Of a DNA stretch of 64,000 nucleotides, positions 19,114 to 39,184 are shown one piece after another. Position 1 is the stretch's first letter; every line of letters begins with the position of its first letter. The DNA is from Hirudinaria manillensis (Eukaryota; Annelida; Clitellata; Hirudinida; Hirudinidae): positions 2,060,001 to 2,124,000 of the forward strand of contig CM067537.1 in assembly GCA_034509925.1 (NCBI GenBank). The letters run 5' to 3'. The notes under the pieces are model-generated. The model was given only the letters and a program-made list of their open reading frames with translations, made no database searches and was not told the origin of the DNA. A program made the translations under genes and the position numbers.

Positions 19114-22100
19114 ATTGAATATAAAATTGAATTGAAAATAGAATTGAAAATAATTCAAAAATAAAAAAAAAAGATTATTATTATTATAGATATTTATTAT
19201 TGATAACATTTTATTTTTTATTGATATATTATTATAATTTAATTATTACTATAATTGAATTATTATTATTATTATTACTATTATAATATAATTATTAATG
19301 CTATTAAATTTAATAAATTATCGTCCCAATTTTCCCGCGTCCCGTTCCAGCAAATCAGCTGACGTCTGCGGCCTCCCGATGGCGACACATTGCGACATCG
19401 ACGTCCGCTTCAGTCTGAACAGAGCGTGCGCCGGAAGACGCTACTGCTTCCTTCCGGCTGCACCAGCGACATTCGGCGATCCGTGCTTTGGAATTGGATT
19501 CCTGATGGTGGAATATCGATGTATATCTGGTAGGAGTGATTTGTTTTACAGGCGTTTATCGTTATGGAATAATAATCGTAATAAATATGATACGATAATA
19601 ACAATAATAATAATATTAAATATACTTTTTAAAGGTAATATTAATAATAATAATTATTATTATTGAATTATAATTATTAACATTATAATATTGCAATTTT
19701 CTAATTTTAAATTCTATATTATAACAATTCAAGCGATATCTAATTCTATTATAATATAATATTCTATTTTAAAATATTATAATTGTATATTAAAATATGA
19801 AATTGTTTTATAAATATTAAATAAATATATAAAAATGTACCTAAAAATGACAAATATCTTTTTGTTTTCTTCCATCAGTTCACTCCATCAACAATCACTG
19901 CTACAACAACAATAACCAACGACAAGATAATGATGGCGATCTTGATAATGATAATATTGATGATGATGATGATGATGATACTTCTCTGGGAAATTCAAAT
20001 ATGGTCAGTCTGAAATTATATTAAATTTATAACAATTACTCTCACTTTTTAGCTAATTATATTGAAATTCGCATTAAATAAAGAATTCGCAAAATAATAA
20101 TTGCTAATAAATGAACTATCAATTATATCAAGAATTATTAACAGATTATCAATTAATTATATTTATTATCTGAACCTTCACCTTGTCTGCAATTCTTTTT
20201 TACTCGCACTGCTTTGAACTTTGAACTTTTCAAAAATCACCACCCAAGGTAAGAGGTCGGCACAACGGGGGAGTGACCTTGATCGACCGCGGGTTCATTT
20301 CGAGTCCGAGGTACCCCCACAAGTACAACAACAACTTGGACTGCAGGTGGCACCTTAGGGTACAGAAGGAACAGGAGATCGTCATCAGCATCTTCGACTT
20401 TGAACTTGACGTCAGAAGGTTAGCTCATGGTGGGGCTTGGATTTGAGATTGTAATTTGTGGCGTTGACTTGAAAATATAATTAATTAATTATAATGTAAT
20501 TAATGTTATGTGATTCCAGTCTGTATTTTGTTTATGATGTTTGCAGTGCTACTGTAATTATTATTTATATAATTTATAATTTATATTATTATTATAATAA
20601 TTTAATTAAATTATTATTACAAAATTAATGTCAATTTCTTTTTAAAATTTTATGGAAATTGGTGGAATTAAAACCCACAAAATAAATTGCATTATGATTG
20701 GAACAATAGCGTCTGATTGACTAATTCATTACAAATGTATCCTTAGATCAATCCCTATCAACAAATCGATTATATTAACATTAATTCTTAAGAAACTTGC
20801 TTTATTTAATTTAATAAACTCACTAATTACTTAATAAATTAATTTTATCATTTAATAAAAACCAAGTTTACGTAATAACGAAATTTATAAAAAGGTCAAT
20901 TGATAATCATTCACAACACAAACCCAACCACAAAGCGAATCCAAATTAAACTAATTACAAGGTCCTCGGGATGTCTGGAAATGGTGGTCATTTCCTCGGT
21001 CAAGGGACCCTCGGAAGAGGAGGAAATCTTCAAGGAATGCGGAGCAGTTGGCTACCAAAGCATTCAGCTGCATTCGAATGAAGCTACCGTCAGACTGGAG
21101 ACTGGATCGTCTGGCCTGGCACAGAGGGGATTTCTCCTTTATTTCGAGGGTAGATCTCGATATAAATGATAATAGTAAAAGGATTAATCGTTATTGTTAC
21201 TATGTTATTATTATTATTATTATTATTTAATTACTGATGATAGTGATGATGATTATTTGTTATTATTATCTGTTTATATATTTATATAGTAATTAATAAT
21301 TTAATTAATTAGAATGATTTCTGTTTCTTTATTATTAATAATGCCTCCTTATTAAATAAATAAATATTCCAACATAATTTAATTAAACTTAATTTCAAAA
21401 TCAATTTTAGCAATTTAACCAAATGAAACATCTTATTCCAGCTATAGGTTCGGGTTGCCCTTTGACATTTGAACCCTCGAATGCACGGGTGAAGTTTGAG
21501 TTCAAAGGCGAAACGTTATTGGCTTACGTAACCTGTCACCAAGGTTACGTCCTCTCAAGGTCAATGAACTTGACCCAGGCAGAGGTCATGTGTAGGGGTC
21601 AACAATGGAATGTCGATACATTTGATTGCATTGATGTCGTTCAAGGTGATTAATATTTTAATTAATTAGCTGGTCAGTTATTATTATTATTTTTATTATT
21701 ATTATCATTTTTATTATTATTTAGGCATTAAATGCAGTTTGAGTTTTGAATAAATTAAATGGTTTACCTGTGATTTAGCGAGTGGTAATGTTAAATGATA
21801 TTTTAATAGTCATTCAGTAATTCGTAATAATAATAATAATAATAATAATATTAACAATGATAATAACAATAATAATTCGTAAATATTTGTTCTTAATTCA
21901 TAGACAGAACGTACAATGGTATGGACAGCTTGACCAATTCAAGTACTATGCAAATGCCCTCATTTGAATATTCAAGAGTTCGTGTGGTCAAGGCGGTCTC
22001 TGTTGTTGGTTTGTGTCAGGGGAACATATTTGTATTTAAATTATAATTATTTATTCATAATTTATAATTAATAATGAGTTATTTGTAATGAATTTATTTT

Positions 22101-23146
22101 CATTATTATTGTAATATTAATAATATTAGAATATTTTAACATTTTGTTATAAATCCTCCGTCTCTAATAAAATATATTAATTAATTATATTGGAGTTAAT
22201 AATAATTTGTTGTGCCTAATTTATAATAAATTATATTAATATCTCATTACTGATACAAACAGTTGCCGGACTATTGGCCAGCATTATGTTGGGCTTCCTG
22301 CTGTCTGTTGGCTTCCTGCTCAGTTACATTATGATAAAGAGGAGGTTGTTAATTAATAATTCATTAGGTCACATGATCAAATAATTAATATTCATATATT
22401 CAGTAATGAATATTTATTGAGTTGTTATCAGTGGAAGTGATAGCAATTATAATAAACAACTTGGAAATTAATACCACTAGAAATTTTAATTTATTAAGGA
22501 TTTATATATTTATTTGTTTATATTTATTTATTATTTATATATTTACGTTTTCATTTATCGTGAATAATCTGAATAAATACAAAAATTAATGATAATATTT
22601 ATAAAATACTTGAAGTTCTAAATTGATGGAATTGAAACTAATCCTTTCAAATGTGACTGAAATCTAATTATCAACTCCTGACCTTTGAACTTTCTCCGGA
22701 AGATTGACGCGATTCCATTTGCAGCGATTATGATAATGATAGCGGTTATCGAAAGATAGAAAGTTATAAGTCGAAATTATTTTTAAAATGTTTATAATCA
22801 ATCTTTTAAAAATTGAACAAGGTAAGGACTTGAGTGCACGCTTCTTCTATCACAATGCCTATGTTACAAGTTAAGTTGACTCTTGCAAAGCCAGAAATAT
22901 CAGTATTATTTTCGAATAATTATAAATATTGTCGATTTAATTTTGAAAATATATTCGCCAATATTCATCATTTATCTACTTTCATTTTCTGTTCACTCCA
23001 CCCATTAACCCGTCAGGTGTGACAAGACCGCTTTCTGCTTAACAGACGAGGGTGAACCCAACGATGTCGTCAAGAACGAAAATCTTCCACAATCCACGAC
23101 CGAAGTATCAAACTTTTTGCAGATCGATTCCTCTTTTAAACGCTAA
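17361..23146 (+). CDS. SUEL-lectin/CUB/sushi transmembrane receptor
   Basis: Probably a cell-surface carbohydrate- and protein-binding receptor of about 455 aa. Coding exons: 17361..17397, 18902 (or 18899)..19049, 19351..19529, 19879..20003, 20249..20418, 20962..21149, 21442..21645, 21904..22008, 22263..22344 and 23017..23146; every junction phase matches. The order is: hydrophobic N-terminal signal (AHWALVLTFAYMTSVV); SUEL/rhamnose-binding lectin domain (EVIVWSSARYGLND, then CAGRRYC, FGDPCFG and VEYRC); Asp-rich linker; CUB domain (GFISSPRYPHKYNNNLDCRW, then KECG and QRGFLLYFEG); sushi/CCP domain with four Cys; and a helix VAGLLASIMLGFLLSVGFLL followed by KRR. The 43-residue tail is acidic. 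The exon at 20249 has an acceptor whose first bases (GTAAGA) also resemble a donor. The ligand is unknown; complement-like or adhesion roles are guesses. Confidence 0.85.
22725..22797 (+). CDS. Possible alternative last exon of the receptor
   Basis: After a good acceptor (GATTCCATTTGCAG) a phase-2-compatible frame encodes SDYDNDSGYRKIESYKSKLF plus a few residues to TAA. Spliced after the transmembrane exon (ending 22344), it would give a Tyr-rich tail instead of the tail encoded at 23017. A strong donor (CAAG|GTAAGG, near 22820) lies after the stop, so it could also be an internal exon that introduces a premature end. Whether it is used is not visible from sequence. Confidence 0.4.
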
Positions 23147-23678: not shown

Positions 23679-24119
23679 TTACGTTGGCGACAGAATGAGA
23701 ATCATGGGATAACAGCAACTGTCGCAGGGCATCATGAACACCGCCGTCCGTGGGGACTCGCTGCGGGGTATCTGAGCGCCGTTGTAGTACGGCGGTTGGG
23801 GCGGTTGGGGCGGATAGGGATACGGTTGTTGTTGATGAGGTGGTTGTTGTTGTTGATAGTACGGGTCTGGAAAAGGCGAGTATTGTTGCTGTTGCTGCTG
23901 GAATTGCGGGAATTGCTGGGGCGGACAATCCGGTCCGCAACAGCTTCCACCTTGTTGTTGTTGTTCGTCCAACTCCACGATGCAGTAGTCGCTTTCCTTC
24001 TCTTGAGCCTGCTGTCTATATTTGGGCTCTTGGCACATCGGGAAATCGTCTTTGCCCTTCTGAGGTTGGTTCGCCTGACGCTTCTTGTTTTGCATGCAAC
24101 CGCATCCTTCTCTGATCAT
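23679..24119 (-). CDS. Gln/Pro/Tyr-rich Cys-containing protein, unknown
   Basis: Not recognised. A 146-aa open frame begins MIREGCGCMQNKKRQANQ, has CxxC-like and CC clusters (GGSCCGPDCPPQ), then a low-complexity Q/P/Y half (FPQFQQQQQQYSPFPDPYY) and ends with a hydrophobic Cys-containing tail. The frame stays open upstream to a possible acceptor (TTTGTAG|CAC near 24133), so an earlier exon, perhaps the frame at 24753..24523, may belong to it. It lies in a same-strand cluster with other Cys/Pro/Gln-rich genes. Codon use is GC-richer than the flanks, which argues for real coding. Parts of the Q tract are encoded by CAA/CAG repeats. Confidence 0.55.
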   Translation of the reverse strand: MIREGCGCMQNKKRQANQPQKGKDDFPMCQEPKYRQQAQEKESDYCIVELDEQQQQGGSCCGPDCPPQQFPQFQQQQQQYSPFPDPYYQQQQPPHQQQPYPYPPQPPQPPYYNGAQIPRSESPRTAVFMMPCDSCCYPMILILSPT

Positions 24120-24522
24120 CTTTTTGGATATCTTACAGTGCTACAAATACGTTCATACGTCAGTCTATATTTTTCAAGATTAACTTTTATTTAAAGTTGA
24201 TTAGAAATAATTCCTAGAGAAGGTAACTTTGTAATATTTTGTTTATGATTAAGAGCCACCTTTTGGCATAGAAATATTAACACGACAGTACACGTAAACA
24301 ATAATCTCAAACATCTAGTAACCTAGTAACAAGCTAGTAACCTAGTGAAACAAGCCTAAAACAGAAGGTAAATGTAGATAATAATATTATTTTGCCCAAT
24401 TATTTTGCTCAATTTACAAGAATCGCTGATCTTAACATAAAGTTATTTTGCAAAATGCTTATACAGCGCAACTCACTTGACGTATGATTACATTACATTA
24501 TAAGGTTGTCATTTTAAAATCG

Positions 24523-24753
24523 TCATAATAATTTGAAATAATAAAACGATATTTCTCCAACTGTTTCGTCATCGCGTCTCGGGTTCCTGCAGGGAGTGAC
24601 ACACGCGGGTTTGGTCAGAGGGAATTCTTCTTGTTTCTTGTTCCGTCCTTGGCCGCACCCCAGCTTCCCTATCGTCCCGAAGAAATCCATGGCCTCGGGA
24701 CAACATCCTCGTTTCACCCGGTTATCGGCGCATCTTCCGAGCTTGGATGGCAT
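24523..24753 (-). CDS. Small basic Cys-rich protein, unknown
   Basis: A 76-aa frame from an ATG at 24753 begins MPSKLGRCADNRVKRGCC and contains about eight Cys in the first 55 residues (including ACVTPCRNPRR), with many Lys and Arg. The last 15 residues (ISFYYFKLL) are encoded by AT-rich DNA and may be intron sequence. A splice from ACA|GTTGGA into the exon starting near 24132 would keep frame and merge it with the Q/P-rich frame. I do not recognise a family. Confidence 0.45.
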   Translation of the reverse strand: MPSKLGRCADNRVKRGCCPEAMDFFGTIGKLGCGQGRNKKQEEFPLTKPACVTPCRNPRRDDETVGEISFYYFKLL

Positions 24754-24759
24754 GGCATT

Positions 24760-26260
24760 AGATGGTCAGATGTCTGAGATTATTTGTTAAAATTGCTAAA
24801 GTTATCTGATAAAGATTTATTGCTAAAGATAACTGTACATAGATATCTGAGACGAATGGATTAAAATCGATAAATATAATTGTATATAAATGTGATTTGT
24901 TAAAATACTAAAGATAATTGCATATTATTGTATCGTGTTGTCACAGTCTGCACAATAGTTTGCGAAAGATGGATCAATTGTTTTTAATTATTTGCTTATT
25001 TATAATTTATAAATTACTAATTCATTTGTAATCTAAAGATTTCATTCTGCTATCGCAACCCGATATCGGATATTAAAGCAAATATAAATCAGTCCTGAAG
25101 TATTGAACTCCATGAGATTCATTGGTGCTTACAATAATTGATGTAATTGTTGTAAAAATTGTAAAAATTTTTAGGAAAAGCGCGCGGAATTAACGTGGAA
25201 GAAGCAGACGATTACTACATAGGCTTTCAATTCTTTACGGGTTTTTATCAAACAATCCTCAACTTGAAAATGTAAACATTTCAAACAAATCCATCCAATT
25301 ATACAAACTTTTTTAAATGAATTTTCTTGTTTTTTATTTTTAATAGTGTCAAAATCGTCTAATCAAAGCATAACAAATCTCATCATTATGACGTCAGAGC
25401 ATGGAAAAAAAATTATTTTTTAATAGAATTTTCTCCAGAAAATTTGTCTAATGCAATGTTCGGTCCTTGTGCTCCAATTTTATGTTTACAACACGTGCTG
25501 AGATGTTACAAGCGTAACTTAGTAACCTGGAAGTCAGGCTATCAACTTCTGTAAGCCGCACAGTCCCACAGGCCTCTATCGCTCCATAAAATTTGACACA
25601 ACGTTGTTATTTTGTTATAAACCATTATAAATCTTTAAATAATCTGAATGAAATGAGCTGTTTTTCGAGACTATAATGGTTTTTTTATTCACTCAGAAGT
25701 CATTACTTCTCAATATGGCCAGCCAAAGTGGTCACTGCAGTCTAAAATTAAAATTTTAAAATACATTTTAAATACAGAAAATCCAGAAAGGCTATTATAG
25801 GAGTAAAAAGAAAATTTGTGATTCTGATCCATGTCACCTAAATGCCGCCATTGTTCCTAGCTGGAATTATCCAACACTTGAAACTTCAGCTTCAGTCAAT
25901 TGACACCTAAATAATTTAATCCAAGTTTGGAAGCAAGCTATTTGTCATATCGAAGTTTATCGCTTAGCACGTGAACTTAATTCGTTGCTTGCCTCTTATA
26001 TAATACTCGGTTAATGGAAATCGTAAAAGATCAGTTTCGTTTTCTAATTTCAAGTTTTATTCAAACTTCTAGTCACTGGTCAATGGTCATTGCGAAATGA
26101 CACAACAAAAGTTTTTAAAAATAGATAAATATCAAAGTTCTTGATGGTAATCTGAAATTTTAAAATATTATTGACCCGTTATGCACTTTTTATGCACTAA
26201 AGTACTCTTAATGAAATGATCAGACTTTCGTGGCATTCATGGTTTTTGTCTCTTCTATGG
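24760..26260. other. Intergenic region in the Cys-rich cluster
   Basis: AT-rich, with no exon, RNA gene or strong repeat that I can support. Several stretches are ordinary unique sequence. Confidence 0.5.
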
Positions 26261-26269
26261 TACAGCTTC

Positions 26270-27502
26270 TCAATACGGATTGCCATAGTAGCCACCATTC
26301 CGATTTTGCATGCATCTCGAGTAGGACTGTGACGGCTGTAGGTAGGGAGACCCGTAGAATGAAGGCTGTTGGATCGGATTGTACGACGTCTGGATCGATC
26401 GTACGTAATCCTCGCACTTCCACGGAGAAATGAACCTGGCTGGAATGTAGTAGATGGAATTCTGAGACTTGTTGAGCGGACATGGAACGGGCACAGGAGG
26501 GTCAGGGGGTCTCGAGAAGAACTTGCATCTCCTGAGAGATTCTGCATTGAGGGTGACAACGTCCTGTTCCTCGACGCATGGGGGTATCGGCTTCGGCTTC
26601 TTCTTGGCCTTACACGGCGGACTCTTGAGAAATTCTTGGAGGTTTCTACATCTTATGTTCTTGCAGATGGACTTCGGACCTCCGCAGTTGTGGTATAGCG
26701 GCCGAATGCCCTTTTTGTTCCAGCAAACCTTGGGACACATGCACCCGTCTATTCGACAGAGACAGGCCGGTATCGGCACGTCTTTGGCGTCGCAGTATGG
26801 TTCGTTTTCGGAGGTTTTTTCCGAATCTTCGCTGCGGCTATTGACGTCGAAGTTGTTGTTGTGACATTGATTGTGTGCGTGACCGTGTCCGTGACCGTGC
26901 CTGTGATGCCTCATGTGACCTCTGTGTGCGTGATGAATCGGAGGAGGCATGTGCTGATGGGCCGAGCCTTGACAAGAGAACGTCTGAGAGGGGCAAATGT
27001 GATATTGGCCATGGGGCGGAAGGGGCAAGTGACACTGGTGGGGTGGAGGTTGAGCGGGAGAACCACACCCATGGGTAATTTGAGGGCCTGGGAGAGTGGG
27101 TGGATGCGGGGAAGCGTGGCTTATCGGGTGACTGAACTGCTGCTGTGGATACATGGTGGGAATGGCATTCGGACAGAGCGTTGGTGGAAGCGGATTGGGG
27201 CGCGAGTAGAGCATGACTGGCTCGTTCTTCGAGGCACATTCGCAAGTCATCTCCTCGCACGGACAGATCTTGTCTTCCGGCTTTTCGACCTTCAACTCCG
27301 GCGGACAGCACGTGTATTCTATGTCGTCTTCTTCCTTTTTCTGCTTCCGATAAACTTCGTACACTTTGCAGAATTTGGCAGGACAGAAGATAATGTGTTC
27401 CTTAAGCTCATCGTGTGCTTTCTGTAACTTCTCCTTCTTGTGTATGTCCCTGTCTGCCATGGACCTCGTGAGGAAATATTGCAAAGACTTTCTTGATGTC
27501 AT
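26270..27502 (-). CDS. 410-aa Cys/Pro/His-rich protein, unknown
   Basis: Not recognised. This single-exon frame starts at ATG 27502 (MTSRKSLQYFLTRSMADRD). Residues about 20-60 look helical and charged (DIHKKEKLQKAHDELKEH, then FCPAKFCKVYEVYRKQKK). A Cys-rich block (CCPPELKVE, CPCEEMTCEC) is followed by a Pro/His-rich middle with a His-Gly run (MRHHRHGHGHGHAHNQCH). A second Cys block (ACLCRIDGCMCPKVC) and a Tyr/Gln-rich end (PIQQPSFYGSPYLQPSQSY) complete it. No signal peptide or membrane helix is seen. The Cys spacing could bind metal, but no named zinc-finger pattern fits. It is the largest member of the minus-strand Cys-rich cluster, and its GC content is well above the flanks. Confidence 0.75.
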   Translation of the reverse strand: MTSRKSLQYFLTRSMADRDIHKKEKLQKAHDELKEHIIFCPAKFCKVYEVYRKQKKEEDDIEYTCCPPELKVEKPEDKICPCEEMTCECASKNEPVMLYSRPNPLPPTLCPNAIPTMYPQQQFSHPISHASPHPPTLPGPQITHGCGSPAQPPPHQCHLPLPPHGQYHICPSQTFSCQGSAHQHMPPPIHHAHRGHMRHHRHGHGHGHAHNQCHNNNFDVNSRSEDSEKTSENEPYCDAKDVPIPACLCRIDGCMCPKVCWNKKGIRPLYHNCGGPKSICKNIRCRNLQEFLKSPPCKAKKKPKPIPPCVEEQDVVTLNAESLRRCKFFSRPPDPPVPVPCPLNKSQNSIYYIPARFISPWKCEDYVRSIQTSYNPIQQPSFYGSPYLQPSQSYSRCMQNRNGGYYGNPY

Positions 27503-27509
27503 CTTCCTG

Positions 27510-30500
27510 ATCTTCGAAAATAGTTTTGATAAGCTTGAATCCTCAATAAAAGTTAAATTCGTACGATATTTGTTTTATCTTTTATCTCATTGAGCACTTA
27601 AAATTAGATGATATTATAAATCTTTTTGACGGAAGTCGGTGCAACGTGACGGTCTAAAACCAATTCATGTGAAATTCATGAGAAATTCATGAGAAAAATT
27701 CACTTTGGCTCTTTGACAAAAAAAAAAACATTGTAAAATCGATCTCACTTGATCTCACTTTACACAGTCGAAGTGATCTCTGCGGAGACCCGCTTACCAA
27801 CTATTTGATTACTTCAAAGACTTTCAGCCCGTCATCTGCAATGGTAATTAATATTCAGTAGCTAATAATTTATTCGGGTTTTCCAGTTTAAGTTAATTAA
27901 ACGTACAGTTTCAGTCTGATAAAATGTTAATTAAAAAGTTCAAGACCTGCTCCAATTAGCTCCTTGTTCTGTTTCTGATGTGCTTTTTGCGCTTTTTTCT
28001 CGTTCTTTTCCAGTTTCGTTTCTGTTGTTTGCAATTGTTTATGTCTTTTAAAACTTTTGGAATGGTTATTTATTTTTTAATAAAAACTGACGTCACAGGA
28101 GCATAAACACAATTGCATTACAGTGGACTGACCCAAAAAAAAGAGATTTTTCTTCTTCTTCTTCTTTGCTCCGGAATTTGGGTCAGGGCATCATTTTTAA
28201 TGCCACAAAAGGCGGGAATTAGGCAGAAAAACATATCTATAAATCCAAATAACGTTTACAATGCATAAAGAATGTAATTTTTAAATTATCAAAAGTTCAA
28301 AGCAATTGTAACAGAAAGTGCAATGACTTGAACAGATGACCACTATCAGTCACGTGATCCGTTTTTAGAATTGTCATTATGATGATGATAATGATGATGA
28401 TCTTTTGCTTCTACAAAATCGAACCCATAAATTGCTTTAGTAGCTTCAGGAAATAATTTTTTTTATAGAAAGTGGAGTAGAAATAGATTTTGTTATTCAT
28501 TTCAGAATTGCACTGAAGTCCTGAAATAATTTCACATCTTTTGCTTGTCATTTGCTCAACCGAATAACTAATGACCGAGCATTTGCTTCGAATTCTTTAC
28601 TTTTTAATTTTATTTTTCTGGAGATATTTTCAACATTAAAATCTTGACAAACACTGAAATATGAATCTTGTAGATTTAAAAATAGATTATCATCCACCAA
28701 TGAACCCAATGAACTCATCTGCAGCGTCGAATGTGGAATAGATCTTCGGATTTTTAAAAAATGGTTTTGTATGTTCATCTGTAGCTCACGCGTTCGCCGC
28801 TATATAAATGACTTATTATTATTATTATTTATCAACATTTCCATCTTCTGTTCTGCCTATCACTGGTGAAGCAGGGTAGACAAAAGAAAAGCACTTCCCT
28901 CATCTCTGCGTGTCCTCCTTTAAGTTATTGGACTCGGCATGAAAAGCAAAATAAAGCCAACGATTATGGGTCAAGGTCAAGTACAATTTTATAATAAGAT
29001 TTCATACTAGTATTTAAATTAAATAGACAAATTTCATAATATAAAATTAATATTTACGAAAGTTATGCCAAAAATGTGGTCCGCTTAAAGCTATAAAGAC
29101 GACCACTGTATGGTCTAGCTTCAACATCACAATTATTGCACTGTTTAGAAACTGGACATCTTATTCTTATAGCTGTTTTAAAAGTTACAGATCTTTGGTA
29201 AGTCCTGAAATTCGGAACCCTGCTCGTAGACAAATTTGTGTCACAAAGAGCAGAGACTATAGCATTTTGTTTTATTCAGGTAGTTTTAAATAATTATATT
29301 ATATTATATAATTAGATAATTATATTTTTTTCTCGATCAACCACTCTTCTAAACACGGAGAATGCATGAGATCCACAAAACACGTTTGATGTAACATACC
29401 AAGCGTTTCAAAATGAGCTCATCGAATGGCAGTTCCAACAAAAAATGTCATGGAAATTTCCAATAATTTTCAATTTTCATCTTTATTTATTTATTTATTT
29501 ATTTATTTCTCAACAAATTTAAGGGTCATCCAATGGCCACTAACACACTTACTAAAGAAAAAATTGTTTTGTTTCACGCCTGTTTTGGTTCTTGGAAGTT
29601 GGAAGTGGTAAAGTTGCAAGCAGATCATGTTGTAGTAGTTTCATGTGTCTTTCATGTGACTTAATGAATAGTAATAGAATTCATTGCTTGGGTTGTCCTT
29701 GTAGTTTCAAGAAAGTTAACTCGTGGTTAACAAATTAGAATGCACTGCTTGTCAATTCTTGAAATTGTTCTCATATCAGGAGCTGTACAATAGAATTTTT
29801 ATTGTCAATCTATGAAAACCACTGCTCCGAAACGATTGTAGTCAAGAACTTTTAAATCTGTCTTTTACTTATTTAAGATGTTGAGATGTGTTGAATCCTG
29901 TCTTACAAATAAAAAATATAACTTTAAAACCAGTTAATACCAGACTTGTAAATTGGCTATCGTATCATTGATCAATCGGTGATCAACCAACTGAGCCAAC
30001 CAGCTAAAGTGATCACTGATCAATCACGGCTAAACCACAGGTTCGAAGAACAGATACGTAGAAACTACAGATTCTAATGAAATAAAGCTATCGATAGAAA
30101 AGATTTTATTTATATATTTTTCTGTCCTATGTACAACATCTAAAGATTTATTGCTTCTGAGTTAGACTTGTGTTTTGTCCGGTCGTGTTTGACAGTTAAT
30201 GGACGTTTGGTTGTTTTACATTATCAAAGGTTTGGTGTCTACCTTTCCCAAATTTACGAATATTCCCGTCTTCAGCTGTTTCTGCTCTGAGACGATTTAA
30301 CAACTATTTATTTTTGACGAATTTTTTTATTTGCAGAAAAATGGATCATTGTAATTGATCTGAGATCTACCATCTGTGATACTAACATTGAAATTGTAAT
30401 CACGTAATTCACGTAAATGTTCATAAGATTTTCTTTTTAAATTTGTTTTCCAATGTTTTAAGAGTTCATAAGGAAATTAATTGCAAAAAAAAAAATTAAT

Positions 30501-30770
30501 GAAGTCTTTAGCATGAAATCTGCAAAATTGATTTTAAAAATCTGAATTCACCGGAATCGATTTCAAGAAAATTTCATTTCACGTTACGGGAACTTGAAAG
30601 AGCGTAAAGTTTGGTTTCAATTGGAGACTCAATTCTTTTCAGAAGTTTGTGTTTAAATTCATTTAAAGATATAAAAATATTGATTTTCGTTTGAGGTCAG
30701 ACAATATAATTCCTTCTTTTTTCTTCATTTTTTTTTACAACGATTCCTTGTCGGATTCACCATCCAGCCC
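27510..30770. other. Gene-free stretch within the Cys-rich cluster
   Basis: No supported gene in about 3.3 kb. It contains a SINE/LINE-tail-like sequence near 28780-28960 (listed separately), a short TTTA run (29484-29508) and otherwise unremarkable AT-rich sequence. Confidence 0.5.
28780..28960. mobile_element. Possible retroelement tail
   Basis: The sequence CGCCGCTATATAAATGAC followed by an ATT microsatellite, then a moderately GC-rich stretch, resembles the 3' ends of metazoan non-LTR elements or SINEs, which often carry a CGCTATATAAAT motif before an ATT tail. A related palindromic motif occurs near 37329-37352. No coding domain remains. Confidence 0.3.
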
Positions 30771-30785
30771 CAAGACGAACGAGGC

Positions 30786-31781
30786 TCAAGAACAGTAGCA
30801 GCACCTTCGAACGGCGTTGTCAGCCACACAGCAGCACGAAGGACAATAGTCTACGTTGTATGGCTGGACGCAAGAGTTCGAACAGCATGGTGATAGGCAG
30901 CACATCTTGGAACAGCAGGGGCTTAGGCAGGGCTTGGGGCAGCACATTTTGGTACAACAGGGACACGAATTCGGCTGACCGCAGCAAGCATTGTTCATCA
31001 TACAGGGAGGTATGCAGCATATGGCCGTTATGCTCGGCTGAGATTCCTGGACTGGCCGGTAGGGCTGGATTGGCGTCGGTCGCTTCAGGTTTAGTGGAGG
31101 CGGAAAGCGGAATTGCTGCTGTGGTGGCCGGAATGCCGGACCCGGGCCGACTGGCGAGAAGTTCGGTTGGAAACCTCCCTGCAAATTCGGCGGACCGTAA
31201 TTGGGCGAACCGCCTGATTGGCCGAAAGATGAGAAATTAGGACAGTTTAATAGCGGTGGACAGTTTGGCGGCATCGGCGGTAGTGGTCTAGGCTGGTAGC
31301 CACCCTGAGGTGGGAATGGGAACCGGGTCTGGTTGCCCATTCCGGGATTTCTCGGCATCGGCCCTTGTTGCATCGGACCCATTCCTGGAGGACCTAAGTG
31401 TTGCTGTGGCTGTTGGAAAGGAGATTGCATCTGTTGTTGTTGCTGTTGTTGCTGCTGCTGGTGTTGCTGCTGTTGCTGTAAGTGTTGTTGCTGCTGTTGT
31501 TGTAAGTGTTGCTGCTGCAGTTGTTGCTGTTGTAGCTGCTGCTGTTGCAGCTGTTGCTGTTGTTGTTGTTGCAGGGGCTGTTGTTGCAGCGCCTGCGACT
31601 GTAGCATGGACATCTGAGGAGATGACATTATGCACGGAAGGACGCAACATGGCGAAAAACAACAGGCTCCCTGGAGACCAGGCGACGAACAGAACTGGAG
31701 ATTGGGTGCCTGTGCGCTGGTGGAAAACGACGGCTGGTTCGGAAATTGGTTCGGAGTGTGGAAGCCTGGATCCGGGTTCAT
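30786..31781 (-). CDS. 331-aa Gln/Pro-rich protein with Cys-rich C-terminus
   Basis: Not recognised. The ATG is at 31781 (MNPDPGFHTPNQFPNQPSF). After a Cys patch (GACCFSPCCVLPC) there is a Gln tract from about residue 56 to 120. A Pro/Gly/Phe-rich middle (PMPRNPGMGNQTRFPFPP) and an unusually Cys-dense last 75 residues with repeated CC pairs (SPCCSKMCCLSPCCSNSC) follow, ending CCYCS. The tail is reminiscent in composition of keratin-associated or sperm structural proteins, but that is not homology. The Gln tract is encoded by mixed CAA/CAG and makes Ala/Cys/Thr shadow frames elsewhere. Single exon; same strand and character as its neighbours. Confidence 0.75.
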   Translation of the reverse strand: MNPDPGFHTPNQFPNQPSFSTSAQAPNLQFCSSPGLQGACCFSPCCVLPCIMSSPQMSMLQSQALQQQPLQQQQQQQLQQQQLQQQQLQQQHLQQQQQQHLQQQQQHQQQQQQQQQQMQSPFQQPQQHLGPPGMGPMQQGPMPRNPGMGNQTRFPFPPQGGYQPRPLPPMPPNCPPLLNCPNFSSFGQSGGSPNYGPPNLQGGFQPNFSPVGPGPAFRPPQQQFRFPPPLNLKRPTPIQPYRPVQESQPSITAICCIPPCMMNNACCGQPNSCPCCTKMCCPKPCLSPCCSKMCCLSPCCSNSCVQPYNVDYCPSCCCVADNAVRRCCYCS

Positions 31782-31789
31782 GATTTGAA

Positions 31790-33480
31790 CGCTGCTTCTG
31801 TTTGGTTAGATGGATTTCTTTCGATTGTTCCGTCAGTTCATGAATTGTAAATCAACATCGTTTGCGGAGGTTTTTTAATTAAAAAAAAAATTCTTTGCTG
31901 TTTTCTTCCGTGTTGGTTTGTTTATTTTTGCTCGATTGAAGTTGTTACGCAAAACGAAACGTCACGTTTGGAAACCTCCAGTTGCAACCAGTTTACAAAT
32001 CTCAGAGAAAGAGTTCGAATTTTGGAAATTTGGAAATTTTAATTAGTCGGTCACACTTCTTTTTAATTTGTACAAACCCTTATTTTGTCTCGTGGAAATT
32101 CCGAGCAGTAATTTCAATGAGTTCATGAAACGCATCCTTTTCTTCTGGTGATAGTTGAATCCAATCCAAAGTTACAGTTTTTAATCAGTTAGCAAAATAG
32201 TATGCTTTACAATATGTTCAAAGTTTCACAAAAATAAAAACACGGCATGATTTTGTCTGCTTTCAATATTTAATGATCACTCATAAGTATTATTAATTAG
32301 CTATCTTTTTTTTCACTTAACTATAAATTATTATTTTCAAAGAAAAATATTCTTGAACAAGTATTCAATGAAACTTTCTTGATTAATGAATATAAATTAT
32401 ATGGAACTTTAAAAATATTCTCACATTATTTGTTTGATCTAAAATTTTAAAGATATATATTTCAATATATATTTATCTAAATAAGATTATCAAATTCTTT
32501 TAAACGCAGAAAAAATTGATACACGCTCTCACCATTACTAAATCAATTTTTGGTTAAAAGTTAAGTACGATTCTTGTTTCGACCATGTTTTTACGTCTTG
32601 TAGGCTTTCGCCGAACGTGGCTTCGGACGTAAAACATGCTTACCGTAGATAGGAGATGCCGTAATAAATTATTGCAGTCAATTTCGAGAAATTTATGAAC
32701 TTGGAGGAAGTTCAATAGCTCGAAAAGATGGCGTCACGCGGACACGATATTTTGAGTGACCGCAAAGTATTTTGACAGCGAATAATCGTTGATATCGATG
32801 GATTGGAAAGTGGATCAGGTCAGGTATAACAGTTATTATCCCCTTATTACTTAATTTTTAAGACCAATTCACTTGATTTAAATTCATTATTATGTCAAAT
32901 TATTTATTTTCTCCATGTCTTTTACAAAGTCGAAGCGAACCTCTTGCAATTTTAATACGAATATTTATTGGAAAACATCACGTAATAATCTTCATTAATT
33001 TGATATTTGTTAAGACATTAACAGGATGCATGTCATCCTTCGTAGGTAATTTGGAATGAGGTTCCCTTCCGAATTGGTATAATCTCGAATCTTCAACTTT
33101 GCCGGCAGAGTGAAGCCAGCCTAATCGGATCTTTTGTGGCCAACGTGGGTTAAACGTTCGACCTTCAGAATTGATTTCTCAAGGTCAGCACCGGCATAAG
33201 GAGACTTTGCATCCCTGGGGTTTTTCTGTGCCGAAATGCCATGATGAGTTGAATAATGTGAATTTATTTATAATGAATTATATTGATTAGATCGAGTTGG
33301 ACAACAATACTAGGAACGCAGCGATCCGATTGATGATTATTGCTAATTTCACACTAATTTTCTTTACTACTTATTAAATTATTTAATTGCAATAATCAGT
33401 AAATAAGTGTCTAGGTCTGTCTATGCAAATGAATTATCATCTGGTGATCGTTTGACGATGCCAGAATGAATGAAGATGTT
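31790..33480. other. Intergenic region; possible SINE fragment
   Basis: No supported gene. A moderately GC-rich block at 33055-33235 contains an ACGTTCGACCTTC sequence resembling a tRNA B-box, as seen in tRNA-derived SINEs, but no A-box or cloverleaf can be drawn. A YY1-like core (AAAAGATGGCG) lies near 32719-32729. Confidence 0.35.
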
Positions 33481-33484
33481 CTTT

Positions 33485-34320
33485 TCATTCTGCGCGGGAC
33501 ACTGATCTCGATCTCGGCGATCCTACAAAATCACCAATCCTCGGGTCATCATCGTCGACATCGTTCGTAACGATAAGAAACCAACCTTCGCTTTCGGGGC
33601 CCGTAGGGCAGCAATTTTTCTTCTTCTTGCAGCAGCAGTTGCAGCAACAGCAACAACAGTTATTGCAACAGCAGCAGCGGTTGCAGCAGCAGCTGCAGCA
33701 GCAACTACAGCAGCGACTGTGACAGCAACAGCAGCAACAACAGCAGCAGCACTTTTTGTCTTTGGACTTTTTTTTAGGGAGTTTTATACAAAACACGAGA
33801 GGAGCCTGTTCCCTTACTGGATACCTGGTTTCATCGAAGCTTGAAAGACTGGAAGAATTGCTGGAAGGAATTAAAGGTCAAAGGTTATTCATTGATTGAT
33901 CGACTGATATAGTCAGAAGGTTAAGATTGCGTTCTTTCGACAAGATATTATTAGTTTGAGTTAAGTGCATTTTAAACACTAAATATTAGTACGCATTAGT
34001 TCACATCTAGGTTATATAATCCTCCAATTCCTATTCACTCATCAAAGTTACTTAGTACCACAACTTAGTAAATACGACAACGGGGTGAAAAGCTGCAGAA
34101 ACACAACACAACACGACCACGTAACCAAGGCAACACAAGTTGTTTACTAAAAAAAAAACAATAATCGTATACATCGTCATTGAATCACTAGGTAGTTATG
34201 TGTAGTTATATGCGAGCGAGAGTCCAACCTCATGCAGCAGCTCGGCAAGGAGTCGAGTTCGCAATCGTACTCCATCGAAGTGAATCTCGAAGGATCGAAT
34301 CGGCATCCAGGACTTTTCAT
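33485..34320 (-). CDS. Poly-cysteine protein (155 aa), unknown
   Basis: There are two exons on the minus strand: 34320..34229 (ATG, ends phase 2 at AG|GTTGGA) and 33860..33485 (acceptor CCTTCCAG, TGA). The join reads LPSCCMSNSSSLSSFDETRY in one open frame. Residues 68-115 hold 33 Cys in 48 positions, starting with ten in a row and broken only by His, Ser, Arg, Asn and a KKKKN block, flanked by Lys-rich KKKSKDKK. The end is acidic then Arg/Ser-rich (VDDDDPRIGDF, SPRSRSVSRAE). The Cys run is encoded by TGC/TGT codons, a GCA-type repeat, but the frame continues cleanly on both sides. Possible roles are metal binding or a disulphide- or lipid-anchored structure; I cannot choose. The opposite strand of exon 1 is also open. 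Confidence 0.65.
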
Positions 34321-34945
34321 ACGCCAGCCTCTGGTGACTGACCCCACGAGATCCGTTAATTTATAATCAGTTAACTAATAATCAGTAAACTGGCTACTCT
34401 TTCGTATATCGTGTTCATGAATATACATGAATGGCCGGGTTGAATGATTGAAGATTTTCTGTCGATTTCGAGATTTCGAGATTTTACGATCAATCGGAAG
34501 CCATTATTTTCATTAAATGAGTCTTTTTGTTGAACTTTTTAATACTTAAAAGTCACGATTTTGATGTGTTTTTGAAATTTTATTGTTTACGTTCTGTGTT
34601 TAATTTTTTACGTCGAATTGCGTGGTTGTGAAAAGTGAATCTCAGTTTTAATAAATTTTTTTTCGTTCGAATTAATAATTCAAATTTGAAAATTCCGTCT
34701 TAATTTTGGGGAACCTACTGTTTGCAGAAGTAACGCAAAAGAAACTTGTTAATAATATTGAAGAATTTTGAATAATAATAATAAATGTTTTAGGATTGAT
34801 AATGAATTTTATTCTGCAATCTGTCTTCTACGTGCACACTATAAAACTTGACGTGACACCAAAATTGGCACAAAACCAAAATGATTTTATTCAACAAATC
34901 AACAGATAAATAAATAAATAAATAATTGTACAAACAAAAACATTA

Positions 34946-35344
34946 TCATTTCATCATATTATGTCCGATTCCCATGGGTTTGATTCCCATGGGTTTAATT
35001 CCCATGGGTTTGTTTGCCGCGGGTTTGTTTCCCGCCGCCGGTTTTTCATCCGTCTGCTTGTCTTGACAGGCACAGCAACATATAGGACTGCAAGTCGGAC
35101 AATTGCAGAATGGAATGATGGTCGCTGGCATCGGTAAGTTACACTGGCACCGTATGATTGGCCTTTTGGGCGGAGGAACGGGAGGACAGCACGGTGGCGG
35201 GCAGTCGGGTATCACCGTGGGTACCGAGATGTAAATTGGACCCAGACATTGCGGAGGACAGCCGCAGGGCTCGATGTAGTGGACTGGTTGCTGGATGCAC
35301 TTCTCGTAGATGAAGCACGGCGGAAGCTGCTTGTCTTCTGTCAT
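34946..35344 (-). CDS. 132-aa Cys/Pro-rich protein, unknown
   Basis: ATG at 35344 (MTEDKQLPPCFIYEKC). The first 95 residues are rich in CxxC, CC and PPC patterns (DCPPPCCPPVPPPKRP, then CNCPTCSPICCCACQ). The tail carries a five-residue repeat, KPMGI three times, from a 15-base tandem DNA repeat (about 34971-35015). A possible acceptor (CTTTCAG) lies just upstream, so a non-coding first exon is likely. Not recognised; it belongs with the other Cys/Pro-rich minus-strand genes. Confidence 0.7.
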   Translation of the reverse strand: MTEDKQLPPCFIYEKCIQQPVHYIEPCGCPPQCLGPIYISVPTVIPDCPPPCCPPVPPPKRPIIRCQCNLPMPATIIPFCNCPTCSPICCCACQDKQTDEKPAAGNKPAANKPMGIKPMGIKPMGIGHNMMK

Positions 35345-36447: not shown

Positions 36448-38165
36448 ATGCTTCAACTAGGAGAGGTAACGATTTGAGCTTACGTCCGTCCGTCCGTCCT
36501 TACGTTCGTCCAGAACCCAACTCTGGCCGCACCGGAACAATCATTTCTTAATCATTTTCATTCATTGATACATCTTTTACGCATTTTAATTTGTTAATTT
36601 GTTTATATTCGCCGGATTAATTGCATCGATTGTTTTTTAATTTGTTCGTTCAGCAATTGAGACCTTACCCCGTGGGCTATCCGCTACCGGGACCTCCACC
36701 GAATTACTACAACCTTTACCCCCCCTACTATGGCGGTCCCGGTGTGAACCCGGTAATTAACTAATTAATTAATCACTCATTCATTCAGAAATTAACTAAT
36801 ATTAAGGTTATAATAGTATTATAGTAGTTAATATTACTAGTCAAGCTCCATTGTTTTTTTCCATTTGAATAATGAAATCAGACAATAATCATAATAATAG
36901 TAATAGTGTTACCGCTAATATGAATTCATTGAAATAGGATCTGCTTCTTATTCAATGAAGGTTGTGAATCGTGAGAATTTCGAACGTTTCTTGATTGATT
37001 TGATTGACTTTTGATTGACTTGATTGACTCGATTGATTGACGAGTAAAGATGTTGAAATTAATTTCAGCATCCAGGCAGCTTCCACAATCATTTCCCTCC
37101 GCCGAGCTACAGCCATTTTTATTTCAACCAGGGATGTCCTCCATTACCGGTTTGTTACTGAATTTAAGCAATTTGATTCAATTAATATTAAATTCAAGTA
37201 AAATAGATTTGTTTTTAATTGTTTAAGCCTAAGAATAGCTTCATATTTATGAATTTATTCTACATAAAAGATTATTTGTTAATAACATTTATTAATAATA
37301 ATATTTTCATGGCACCGTAAGCATCAGAGGGCGCTTAGAATTTATATAGCGCCGTTTCGCAAAGGTAAATGCTAATAATGCGCTATTTATGGGTTCTGAA
37401 CAGTGAACTTGATCAGCTTTGAATGAATTTCTTCGTAATTATAAAATATTTGAAGTAATTACGTTACAATCATCATCATGATTATCACAACAGCCTCCTG
37501 AATATCGCCCGCCACTGCCGCCGTCGCTGCCACTACTACAGACGCCGCCGGCGCCGCCGCCCTCTTGCCGTCCCCCTGTTCAGATTCCGAGATCATCTAC
37601 GGTTATTATTATTACTATTACTATTGCTGTTGATATTTTTGTTATTGTTATCGTCGTCGTTATTATTATTATTATTTATATTTTATTTTTTGATACTAAA
37701 ATTCTTTACCTTCCCGACCAACTACGATGCTCTCTTGGCTATTCATTGGTCAGATCCAGAGGCCACCAACTGCGGTGATGACTTGTTTATAAATGTTTAC
37801 AGTTTTATTAAGCTTTTTAATAATAATCTACCAATTAATTAATTGAGTAATAATAATTAATCAGATATATTACTATAGTAACTAAAATCAATATTAACTA
37901 CTATAATATATAATATATAATATTATATAATGAGCTCATGTACACAGAGATGTTATTGGATTAAGTAATTTGTTACTTAATAATAATATTAATATTATTT
38001 ACAATAATGATATTATTATTATTATTATTATTAATGATAATAATAATATTATTAATATTAATTAATTTATAATTGATTAAAGCCTCCACCACCAAATCGA
38101 ACAGCAGCGAACATGGAACTGAAAACTCCTCTTCAAGAACCTCAGTCGATATCTCCATTTGTATG

Positions 38166-38198
<33 letters not shown>

Positions 38199-39184
38199 TA
38201 CAATATACAATATAATAATAATAGTAATATGATAATAATCATCATAAGAATAAGAATAATAATTACATTATTATAGTAACAATAATATTATTATTATATT
38301 AATATAATAGTAATAATATAATAATAACATTATTACTATTACCATCACTATTATTAATAATGGCATCGGTTGGCATGGTAATTGAGTGTCATTATGATTG
38401 ATTTGAAGAACATGGACAACAAGTTGGACATGTACCTGTTGGGTAAATTCCCGGTAAACAAAAAATACGACAATACCTCAGTTCACCAGGTCAAGGAGAA
38501 CGTGCGTTTTGCTTTCAATTGTATTAAGTTGCAGTATCATCACTGATACAATAGTACTGTTTTCTGCATAGTATATTTTGAATACTGTTTAGTATATCTT
38601 GAATACTTTATAGGATATTTTGAATACTATATAGGATATCTTGAATACTTTATAGGATATTTTGAATACTATATAGTATATCTTGAATACTTTATAGGAT
38701 ATTTTTAATACTATATAGGATATCTTGAATACTATATAGGATATTTTGAATGCTATATAGGATATCTTGAATACTATATAGGATATCTTGAATACTATAT
38801 AGGATATCTTGAATACTATATAGGATATTTTGAATACTGTATAGTATATCTTGAATATTGTATAGTTTATTTTGAAACTTATAAAGGATATTTGGAGTAG
38901 TATATGATATATATATCTTGAATACTGTAAAGTTTATTTTGAATCTTGTATAGTCAGATTTGACAAATCGTCATGGTTATTAATATTAATAATAATAATA
39001 ACATGCAATAATAGGCCTATTTTAATTAACATTTATTACAATCACCAGCCATTACCTTCGGTAAGTGTATCTACTGTGAAGTCTAACAAAGACAGCTATA
39101 ATATTACCAAGAATAATTTTAATTACGTGGCAGGTTATGTTTATTATAAATACCAACAAAACATTAACAGAACAACAAGACTAA
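36448..39184 (+). CDS. Pro/Tyr-rich protein made of small phase-0 exons
   Basis: Not recognised. Proposed exons: 36448..36465 (MLQLGE), 36654..36752, 37069..37149, 37494..37601, 37754..37774 (21 bases, IQRPPTA), 38083..38160, 38409..38501, 39049..39060 (12 bases, PLPS) and 39134..39184 (ends TAA). Every intron falls between codons (phase 0), so exons can be skipped freely without breaking the frame. The protein (about 186 aa) is Pro/Tyr/His-rich in the first half (RPYPVGYPLPGPPPNYYNLY, FPPPSYSHFYFNQGCPPLP) and more ordinary later (MDNKLDMYLLGKFPVNKKY). Pro-rich segments suggest SH3 or WW binding or a structural role. The first exon, the 21- and 12-base exons and the exon at 38409 (weak acceptor) are less certain than the rest. 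The frame reopens after the TAA. Confidence 0.6.
38570..38895. repeat. 21-bp minisatellite, about 15 copies
   Basis: The unit TTGAATACTATATAGGATAT plus C or T repeats through an intron of the Pro/Tyr-rich gene. Copies differ mainly by G/T or C/T changes. Confidence 0.85.

Follow-up and report, generated by a model that had tools for sequence, protein, structure and literature searches.

Cysteine-rich, possibly structural proteins and their locus in Hirudinaria manillensis

KRTAP and EDCRP are convergent Cys-rich cross-linkers of hair and feathers, in which CC pairs recur periodically (PMC4423139). The genes with a single coding exon in the epidermal differentiation complex (EDC) are clustered and of extreme composition (PMC11431283). 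In Drosophila, Mst84D/87F form a male-specific cluster of Cys-Gly-Pro genes whose deletion disturbs the assembly of the axoneme and the nebenkern derivatives (PMC10645079). The cytoplasmic intermediate filaments of non-vertebrates keep the lamin tail domain (PMC10125929), and the adhesive anchor cells of flatworms express an intermediate filament (IF) protein with this domain (PMC9229212, PMC6745481). In the current analysis we have considered a window of 64,000 nucleotides from the annelid Hirudinaria manillensis (bases 2,060,001-2,124,000 of contig CM067537.1, referred to as C12, of the assembly GCA_034509925.1, which has 148.4 Mb in 23 contigs). An earlier note on this DNA had pointed out six unrecognised frames rich in Cys, Pro, Gln and His on one strand between 23679 and 35344 of the window, and had suggested a tandem group of structural or metal-binding proteins.

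Three or four orphan genes, and probably a fifth, are encoded in the region; their products are rich in Cys and Pro and in some cases also in Gln or His. This set is best compared with the known Cys-rich structural proteins and is not assigned to them; it has probably evolved independently of the keratin-associated and sperm-tail Cys-rich proteins. Our tentative explanation, to which we give slightly less than an even chance, is that the region encodes intracellular, disordered and disulfide-cross-linked structural proteins resembling these two groups. The observations in its favour are lengths above chance for two frames and probably for a third, the composition, the clustering, the lack of a hydrophobic signal and the occurrence of further Cys/Pro-rich genes in the genome, two of them with a lamin tail domain.

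Reading frames and proposed genes

All six frames of the earlier note are present on the minus strand near the starts given there. The gene models described here were built from the sequence alone, splice sites and reading phase being read from the DNA, and are as follows (ORF, open reading frame).

26270..27502, minus strand: 27502 gene, single-exon ORF of 410 residues; Pro 14%, Cys 7%, His 6%; HHRHGHGHGHAH tract
30786..31781, minus strand: 31781 gene, single-exon ORF of 331 residues; Q tract, Pro/Gly linker and Cys-rich C-terminus CCPKPCLSPCCSKMCCLSPCC
34946..35344, minus strand: 35344, probable gene, single-exon ORF of 132 residues; Pro 21%, Cys 13%; CPPPCCPP and NCPTCSPICCCAC
23679..24119, minus strand: 24119, tentative gene, single-exon ORF of 146 residues; Gln 21%, Pro 17%, Cys 7%
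34229..34320, minus strand: proposed exon 1 of a two-exon gene; MKSPGCRFDPSRFTSMEYDCELDSLPSCCM; donor AG/GTTGGA
33485..33860, minus strand: proposed exon 2 with a poly-Cys stretch; preceded by the acceptor AATTCCTTCCAG; ends in SPRSRSVSRAE and a stop
24523..24753, minus strand: 24753, open frame of 76 residues; Cys 8%

The frame lengths were compared with second-order Markov controls (300 or 600), the longest of the six frames being counted in each control. Synonymous codon choice was scored against 2,066 codons from six nearby reference exons. With each left out in turn, these exons have codon z of 2.6-9.3 in the true frame, and in five of the six one antisense frame scores about equal or higher. 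The codon test is therefore a weak discriminator of the frame; it backs 27502 and singles out no frame among the other cluster ORFs tested.

The best-supported gene of the cluster, and a firm one by both length and codon use, is 27502. Its 434 codons from stop to stop are reached by none of the 300 and none of the 600 controls and its codon z is 5.9; a control in the leave-one-out style gives 5.8 in frame versus 5.7 antisense, a profile like that of the reference exons. Its product has 26 His residues and four CxC motifs. The 31781 gene is firm by length, its 339 codons being reached by 0/300 and 0/600 controls; its codon z is 2.1 (2.9 without the Q tract) and an antisense frame scores higher, at 4.4. 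For 35344, which is a probable gene, the 158 codons are reached by 4/300 and 9/600 controls, the codon z is 0.7 with a higher antisense value of 3.1, four CxC motifs are present and an AATAAA is seen by eye about 55 nt past the stop. The minus frame of 24119 has 153 codons, a length reached by 42/600 controls, and a codon z of 0.8-0.9, with another frame at 2.1; a plus-strand frame of 208 codons at the same locus is reached by none of 300 controls.

The 34320 frame had been taken as a separate gene. Its 65 codons are reached by 204/300 controls, which is too short to stand alone, and it reads instead as exon 1 (codon z 3.0, on 27 codons), the donor of which is in phase with the acceptor at 33860, giving a protein of 155 residues that continues through the poly-Cys frame to its stop. 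The poly-Cys exon has 130 codons, reached by 8/300 controls, and a codon z of 2.8-3.0 (33488-33877), with another frame at 3.6; its TGC/TGT repeat keeps an Ala/Val frame open as well. A plus-strand poly-Q reading of the 33.5-33.7 kb segment was rejected, as the frame meets a TGA within the repeat (by eye). The 24753 frame has been dropped as a gene, its 81 codons being reached by 79/300 controls at a codon z of 0.3; its Pfam match to LysC (E 2.3e-4, 21.4 bits against a cut-off of 27) is judged to be compositional.

The cluster thus exists, but it has fewer members and is more heterogeneous than the six genes proposed earlier: one gene is firm, one firm by length, one probable, one tentative, one a proposed two-exon gene and one frame is dropped. 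The description of the genes as mostly intronless stands, with single-exon ORFs at 27502, 31781, 35344 and 24119, all four having an A at -3 of the ATG; TATAWAW occurs at most 400 nt upstream of two of five ATGs (24753 and 35344). The density of CC, CxC and CPP patterns holds for 31781 (12 CC in 331 residues), 35344 (3 CC) and the poly-Cys exon (26 CC in the 155 residues of its gene), but less so for 24119 (2 CC) and for 27502, which has one CC in 410 residues; 24753 has one. The four single-exon products contain 5-32 aromatic residues in 132-410 residues. The frames are richer in GC than their flanks, as had been remarked, but this contrast is ordinary, the six reference exons having a GC of 0.44-0.49, so that such values are typical of exons here.

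Clustering and relations among the members

A filter for Cys-rich composition was applied to the open stretches of at least 60 codons in 284 kb, 10 kb of which are N and 274 kb readable. Twenty-five of the 1,209 stretches passed, six in the cluster interval and 19 elsewhere. Five of the six are on the minus strand, and the plus-strand one is the antisense of a CAG tract. By eye, simple repeats (triplet or tandem) and runs of Cys account for most of the 19 outside stretches; one is a Wnt-like exon and one, of 94 codons, is unexplained. When placed at random, four of four ORFs fall within 11.7 kb with p 0.0003, and within 11.7 kb and on one strand with p 0.00004 (3.5e-5), both values being post hoc and counting 24119 as real. 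The claim that unrecognised, compositionally similar frames are clustered on one strand is supported, as far as the cluster frames go; their neighbour, a Pro/Tyr-rich gene for which a spliced model is proposed, lies on the plus strand.

The suggestion of a tandem duplicated group was not borne out, as no alignment beyond composition was found in the 21 pairs compared. Composition-adjusted BLAST of these pairs gave nothing under E 0.41. Unadjusted BLAST gave low values, the lowest being 2.6e-11 for 31781 versus the poly-Cys exon, with 2.8e-7 for 24119 versus 31781. Residue shuffles equal these scores in every pair but 31781 versus the poly-Cys exon (z 2.7, 0/200), the similarity of which rests on Cys runs, and for this reason we ascribe the low values to common composition; the second-ranking pair is 31781 and the 34320 frame (residue-shuffle z 2.2, 8/200). 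To judge from these comparisons, the cluster frames have composition in common and no alignable sequence; they are not detectably related and a duplicated family is unsupported.

Database matches and N-terminal regions

The statement that no known family fits was borne out, no credible Pfam or PDB family being found for the cluster proteins. The PDB search covered 27502, 31781 and 35344. Neither 27502 nor 35344 has a match in PDB at E 10, and 31781 has five weak matches, mainly along the Q tract, three of which are MED15, NONO and TBP; its Pfam matches all fall short of the cut-off. The sole Pfam match of 27502, to OPA3 (E 0.14), lies below the cut-off and is judged compositional, as are the sub-threshold matches of the cluster proteins to CLN3, EPL1, PAT1 and Peptidase_U57. 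Among the cluster proteins no keratin-associated family and no metallothionein was matched in Pfam at E 1. Metal binding by the His tract of 27502 is possible.

None of the six cluster proteins has a hydrophobic start by a simple hydropathy rule, as distinct from a dedicated signal-peptide predictor: the best nine-residue hydropathy is at most 0.98 versus 2.64 in a nearby transmembrane (TM) exon. A signal encoded on a separate exon further upstream would escape this rule. The secreted roles proposed earlier (shell, cuticle, adhesive) are therefore disfavoured. The broader guess of a structural function remains plausible, and a sperm or other intracellular role is compatible with the data.

Further Cys/Pro-rich genes and the lamin tail domain

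Protein searches of the genome listed no paralogue for 27502, 35344, 24119 or 24753, which is weak evidence, since the same kind of search with the gene L040 on contig C13 did not list its clear paralogue L039; low-complexity genes of the Cys/Pro type slip past ordinary homology search. The search with 31781 listed weak Gln-tract matches, a poly-Q match on C6 (L007) being a different gene, and that with the poly-Cys exon gave weak matches containing stops.

Searches with DNA patterns were more revealing. CPPPCCP has five matches (none in the reversed control), one in 35344 and four on C13. CCP followed by a basic or polar residue and PC has 15 matches (control 6), of which six are on C13, three on C3, two on C2, one each on C1, C5 and C6, and one in 31781; the match on C6 (L042) lies in no Cys-rich frame of at least 50 codons. 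CCPPCC has ten matches (control 3), five on C5, three on C3 and two on C13. These patterns led to four further Cys/Pro-rich genes, two on C13 and one each on C3 and C5.

C13:2.80-2.83 Mb: L039 and L040, paralogous single-exon Cys/Pro genes that start with MSC, 25 kb apart
C3:8589000-8590400: L041, Cys/Pro-rich exon followed, past a proposed phase-0 intron, by a lamin tail domain
C5:893200-894600: L043, Cys/Pro-rich exon followed, past a proposed phase-0 intron, by a lamin tail domain

The proteins of the C13 pair have 172 and 96 residues and are paralogues at z 5.4 versus dipeptide-preserving controls. One of the two genes is situated near an apparent terminal exon of elongation factor 1-alpha (by eye).

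The exons that follow the intron in the C3 and C5 genes can be aligned with one another, and the joined stretches are 59% identical over 102 columns. A profile of the pair matched lamins in 16 of 18 PDB matches, the best being lamin A/C (E 6e-6, columns 4-102), and the two non-lamin matches are pyocin L1 at E 0.06. The Pfam lamin tail domain is found in C3 at E 6.4e-4 and 20.5 bits, under the cut-off of 34.3, and has no match in C5. By the profile search both Cys/Pro genes carry a lamin tail domain. An intermediate-filament rod was not found before the domain in C3 or C5, where it was looked for in the same frame only. In both genes the Cys/Pro exon contains a start codon of its own, preceded by a stop in the same frame. 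The C3, C5 and C13 proteins have 26-34% Cys, with a hydropathy of 0.22-1.39 in the first 38 residues. No description of Cys/Pro-rich proteins with a lamin tail was found in a literature search that was not exhaustive, and these genes on C3 and C5 are the most novel part of the analysis.

Proposed role and alternative explanations

The proposed role may be pictured as follows. Judging from their composition, the cluster proteins would be intracellular and largely disordered, and their genes would be expressed together in one terminally differentiating cell type. Disulfide bonds formed late in differentiation, perhaps along with Gln-Lys cross-links, would lock the chains together into a tough scaffold round a cytoskeletal filament, and some Cys/Pro proteins, namely those of C3 and C5, may dock on intermediate filaments through the lamin tail domain. 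Chains rich in Cys and Pro and devoid of a signal sequence are consistent with retention in the cell and with cross-linking by disulfides, and the relatives with a lamin tail suggest the docking. We infer the disorder, the cross-linking, the filament association, the co-expression and the cell type from composition and from the precedents.

Several observations weigh against this explanation. The cluster proteins appear to share composition only, with each other and with the C3, C5 and C13 genes; the four single-exon ORFs have 7-13% Cys, well under the proteins of those genes; 27502 has a single CC; and 24119 is only a tentative gene. A lamin tail domain is given a probability of at most 2.5% by hhalign in 27502, 31781 and 35344, and Pfam finds none in the cluster proteins; the match of 31781 (26 columns, E 0.018, 2.5%) was not counted. 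Of 27 pairs from among the cluster and the C3, C5 and C13 proteins, seven lie above a residue-shuffle z of 2. Over dipeptide-preserving controls 31781 versus C3 at full length has z 2.0 (5/200), and the C-terminus of 31781 versus C3 and the two C13 proteins has z of at most 0.9.

Two narrower forms of the same explanation differ in the cell type. In one, which is possible but on the whole unlikely, the genes are active in spermatids, and their proteins would form a lining of the axoneme or of the midpiece with its mitochondria, in the manner of fly Mst(3)CGP: flies have clustered male-specific genes with Cys motifs that serve the axoneme and the nebenkern (PMC10645079), and the cluster ORFs are rich in Cys, Pro and Gln and lack a signal, yet CGP occurs once in 24119 and in none of the other five proteins, and the relatives with a lamin tail point equally to filament-rich somatic cells. 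The other, which is doubtful, places keratin-associated-like proteins in an epithelium rich in intermediate filaments beside the Cys/Pro proteins with a lamin tail. The domain in C3 and C5 and the filament proteins of non-vertebrates and of flatworm anchor cells that bear it (PMC10125929, PMC9229212, PMC6745481) are consistent with such a setting, but the domain is missing from 27502, 31781 and 35344, where the short stretch of 31781 is the single hint. Spermatids are slightly favoured over the epithelium, with little separating them.

The remaining alternatives depart from the proposed role altogether. A Gln-rich regulator (31781) and low-complexity orphans may have come to be adjacent by chance in a repeat-rich genome, as the lack of homology among the members, the abundance of triplet repeats in the window and the resemblance of 31781 to MED15, NONO and TBP in three of its five weak PDB matches would allow; we consider functionally unrelated genes rather improbable in view of the four Cys-rich ORFs in 11.7 kb of one strand (the post hoc p of 3.5e-5 by position). 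Secreted matrix or adhesive proteins of the cuticle, tube, cocoon or jaw, which would count against an intracellular role, call for a signal peptide on an upstream exon; by eye, possible splice acceptors immediately precede the start codons of 35344 and 24119, but the A at -3 in all four ATG-started ORFs and the absence of a hydrophobic start make this improbable. The 26 His of 27502 and the CxC motifs, four each in 27502 and 35344, recall metallothionein-like or His-rich metal-binding proteins, a reading made very improbable by the lengths and the aromatic residues of the four single-exon ORFs and by the empty Pfam search for metallothionein. That the frames arose by chance in GC-rich islands, a possibility raised in the earlier note, holds for 24753 and for 34320 alone, neither of which is above chance, and 24119 is borderline; for the set as a whole it is very improbable, as 27502 and 31781 are reached by none of 600 controls and 27502 is backed by codon use too.

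Neighbouring genes and other observations

36448..38160, plus strand: proposed spliced Pro/Tyr-rich gene; exons 36448-36465, 36654-36752, 37069-37149, 37494-37601 and 38083-38160, all phase 0
19292..23146, plus strand: traced 3' portion of a gene whose exons include SUEL lectin, CUB, sushi-like and TM ones; convergent with 24119; TAA at about 23146

The Pro/Tyr-rich gene is divergent from 35344 and has no Pfam match; its 3' end was not found. On the minus strand at 38395-38490, after a CAG acceptor, there is a possible short terminal exon that ends in TCPTCCPCSSNQS and could belong to a further Cys-rich gene. In the other neighbouring gene Pfam identifies SUEL_Lectin (E 9.5e-5, below the cut-off) and CUB (3.9e-10); the sushi exon was recognised by eye and has no Pfam match, and the TM exon by hydropathy. 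This is to our knowledge an unusual combination. As the Pro/Tyr-rich exons sit past the cluster, nesting of the cluster in an intron of this gene was considered and was rejected, a terminal exon with a stop being present at 23018-23146. Other neighbours identified are SH3BGR-like, PH, glycosyltransferase and leucine-rich repeat genes.

To the left of the window, on the minus strand, are a 94-codon Cys-rich open stretch with 16% Cys and no obvious repeat (62.2-61.9 kb) and two Wnt-like exons seen by eye (20.9-12.0 kb). The 15.6 kb contig C23 is the mitochondrial genome, the readable protein genes of which are all on one strand: cox1, cox2, atp8, cox3, nad6, cob and, about 5 kb further on, nad4, nad1, nad3 and nad2 (by eye). 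TRNAs lie between the genes, and gaps between nad4 and nad1 would hold the rRNAs; the order looks like that of annelids. A cox1 match at C9:3026446-3027786 (L002), on a contig of 9.9 Mb, equals the mitochondrial cox1 in score and E-value and would be explained either by a recent insertion into nuclear DNA or by a join made in assembly.

Comparison with known systems

KRTAP are Cys-rich, have CC in a regular array and are encoded by a single exon (PMC4423139). Four cluster ORFs are single-exon as well, whereas CC is frequent in 31781 and the poly-Cys gene and sparse in the others; the C3 and C13 proteins are the most similar-looking. It is a likeness of composition: the four single-exon cluster ORFs have 7-13% Cys, and the two relatives on C3 and C5 differ from KRTAP in bearing a lamin tail domain of their own. 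Annelids would not be expected to have hair keratins as partners. Metallothioneins are short, dense in CxC and devoid of aromatic residues, unlike the four single-exon ORFs of the cluster. With the Drosophila Mst(3)CGP genes (Mst84D, Mst87F) the locus shares clustered genes and repetitive Cys motifs (PMC10645079), whereas CGP repeats are not present in the cluster proteins. The amniote EDC genes (SPRR, EDCRP, EDPCCC) are similarly clustered neighbours of extreme and differing compositions (PMC11431283); of the EDC arrangement with a non-coding exon 1 and a TATA box, what is seen here is TATAWAW ahead of two of the five ATGs, and no S100-type gene was noticed among the identified neighbours of the partly annotated window.

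The C3 and C5 proteins have the lamin tail domain in common with lamins and invertebrate cytoplasmic IF proteins, but differ from them in having no rod in frame ahead of it, and 27502, 31781 and 35344 differ in having no such domain. The flatworm proteins macif1 and Tmed-if1 are likewise invertebrate proteins of an adhesive anchor cell with a C-terminal lamin tail domain (PMC9229212); they differ in that an IF domain is present, and Cys/Pro repeats are not mentioned in the part of that source used here. It is conceivable, though rather unlikely, that this annelid has evolved its own intracellular Cys/Pro cross-linkers, both stand-alone (the C12 cluster and C13) and as filament-docking linkers with a lamin tail (C3 and C5). 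A lophotrochozoan set of this kind would add an independent case beside those of hair and feathers and of fly sperm. The fusion with the lamin tail would suggest a physical link from cross-linker to filament, and the whole would be an invertebrate counterpart of the hair keratin-associated proteins in which the cross-linker and a filament-type tail domain are fused.

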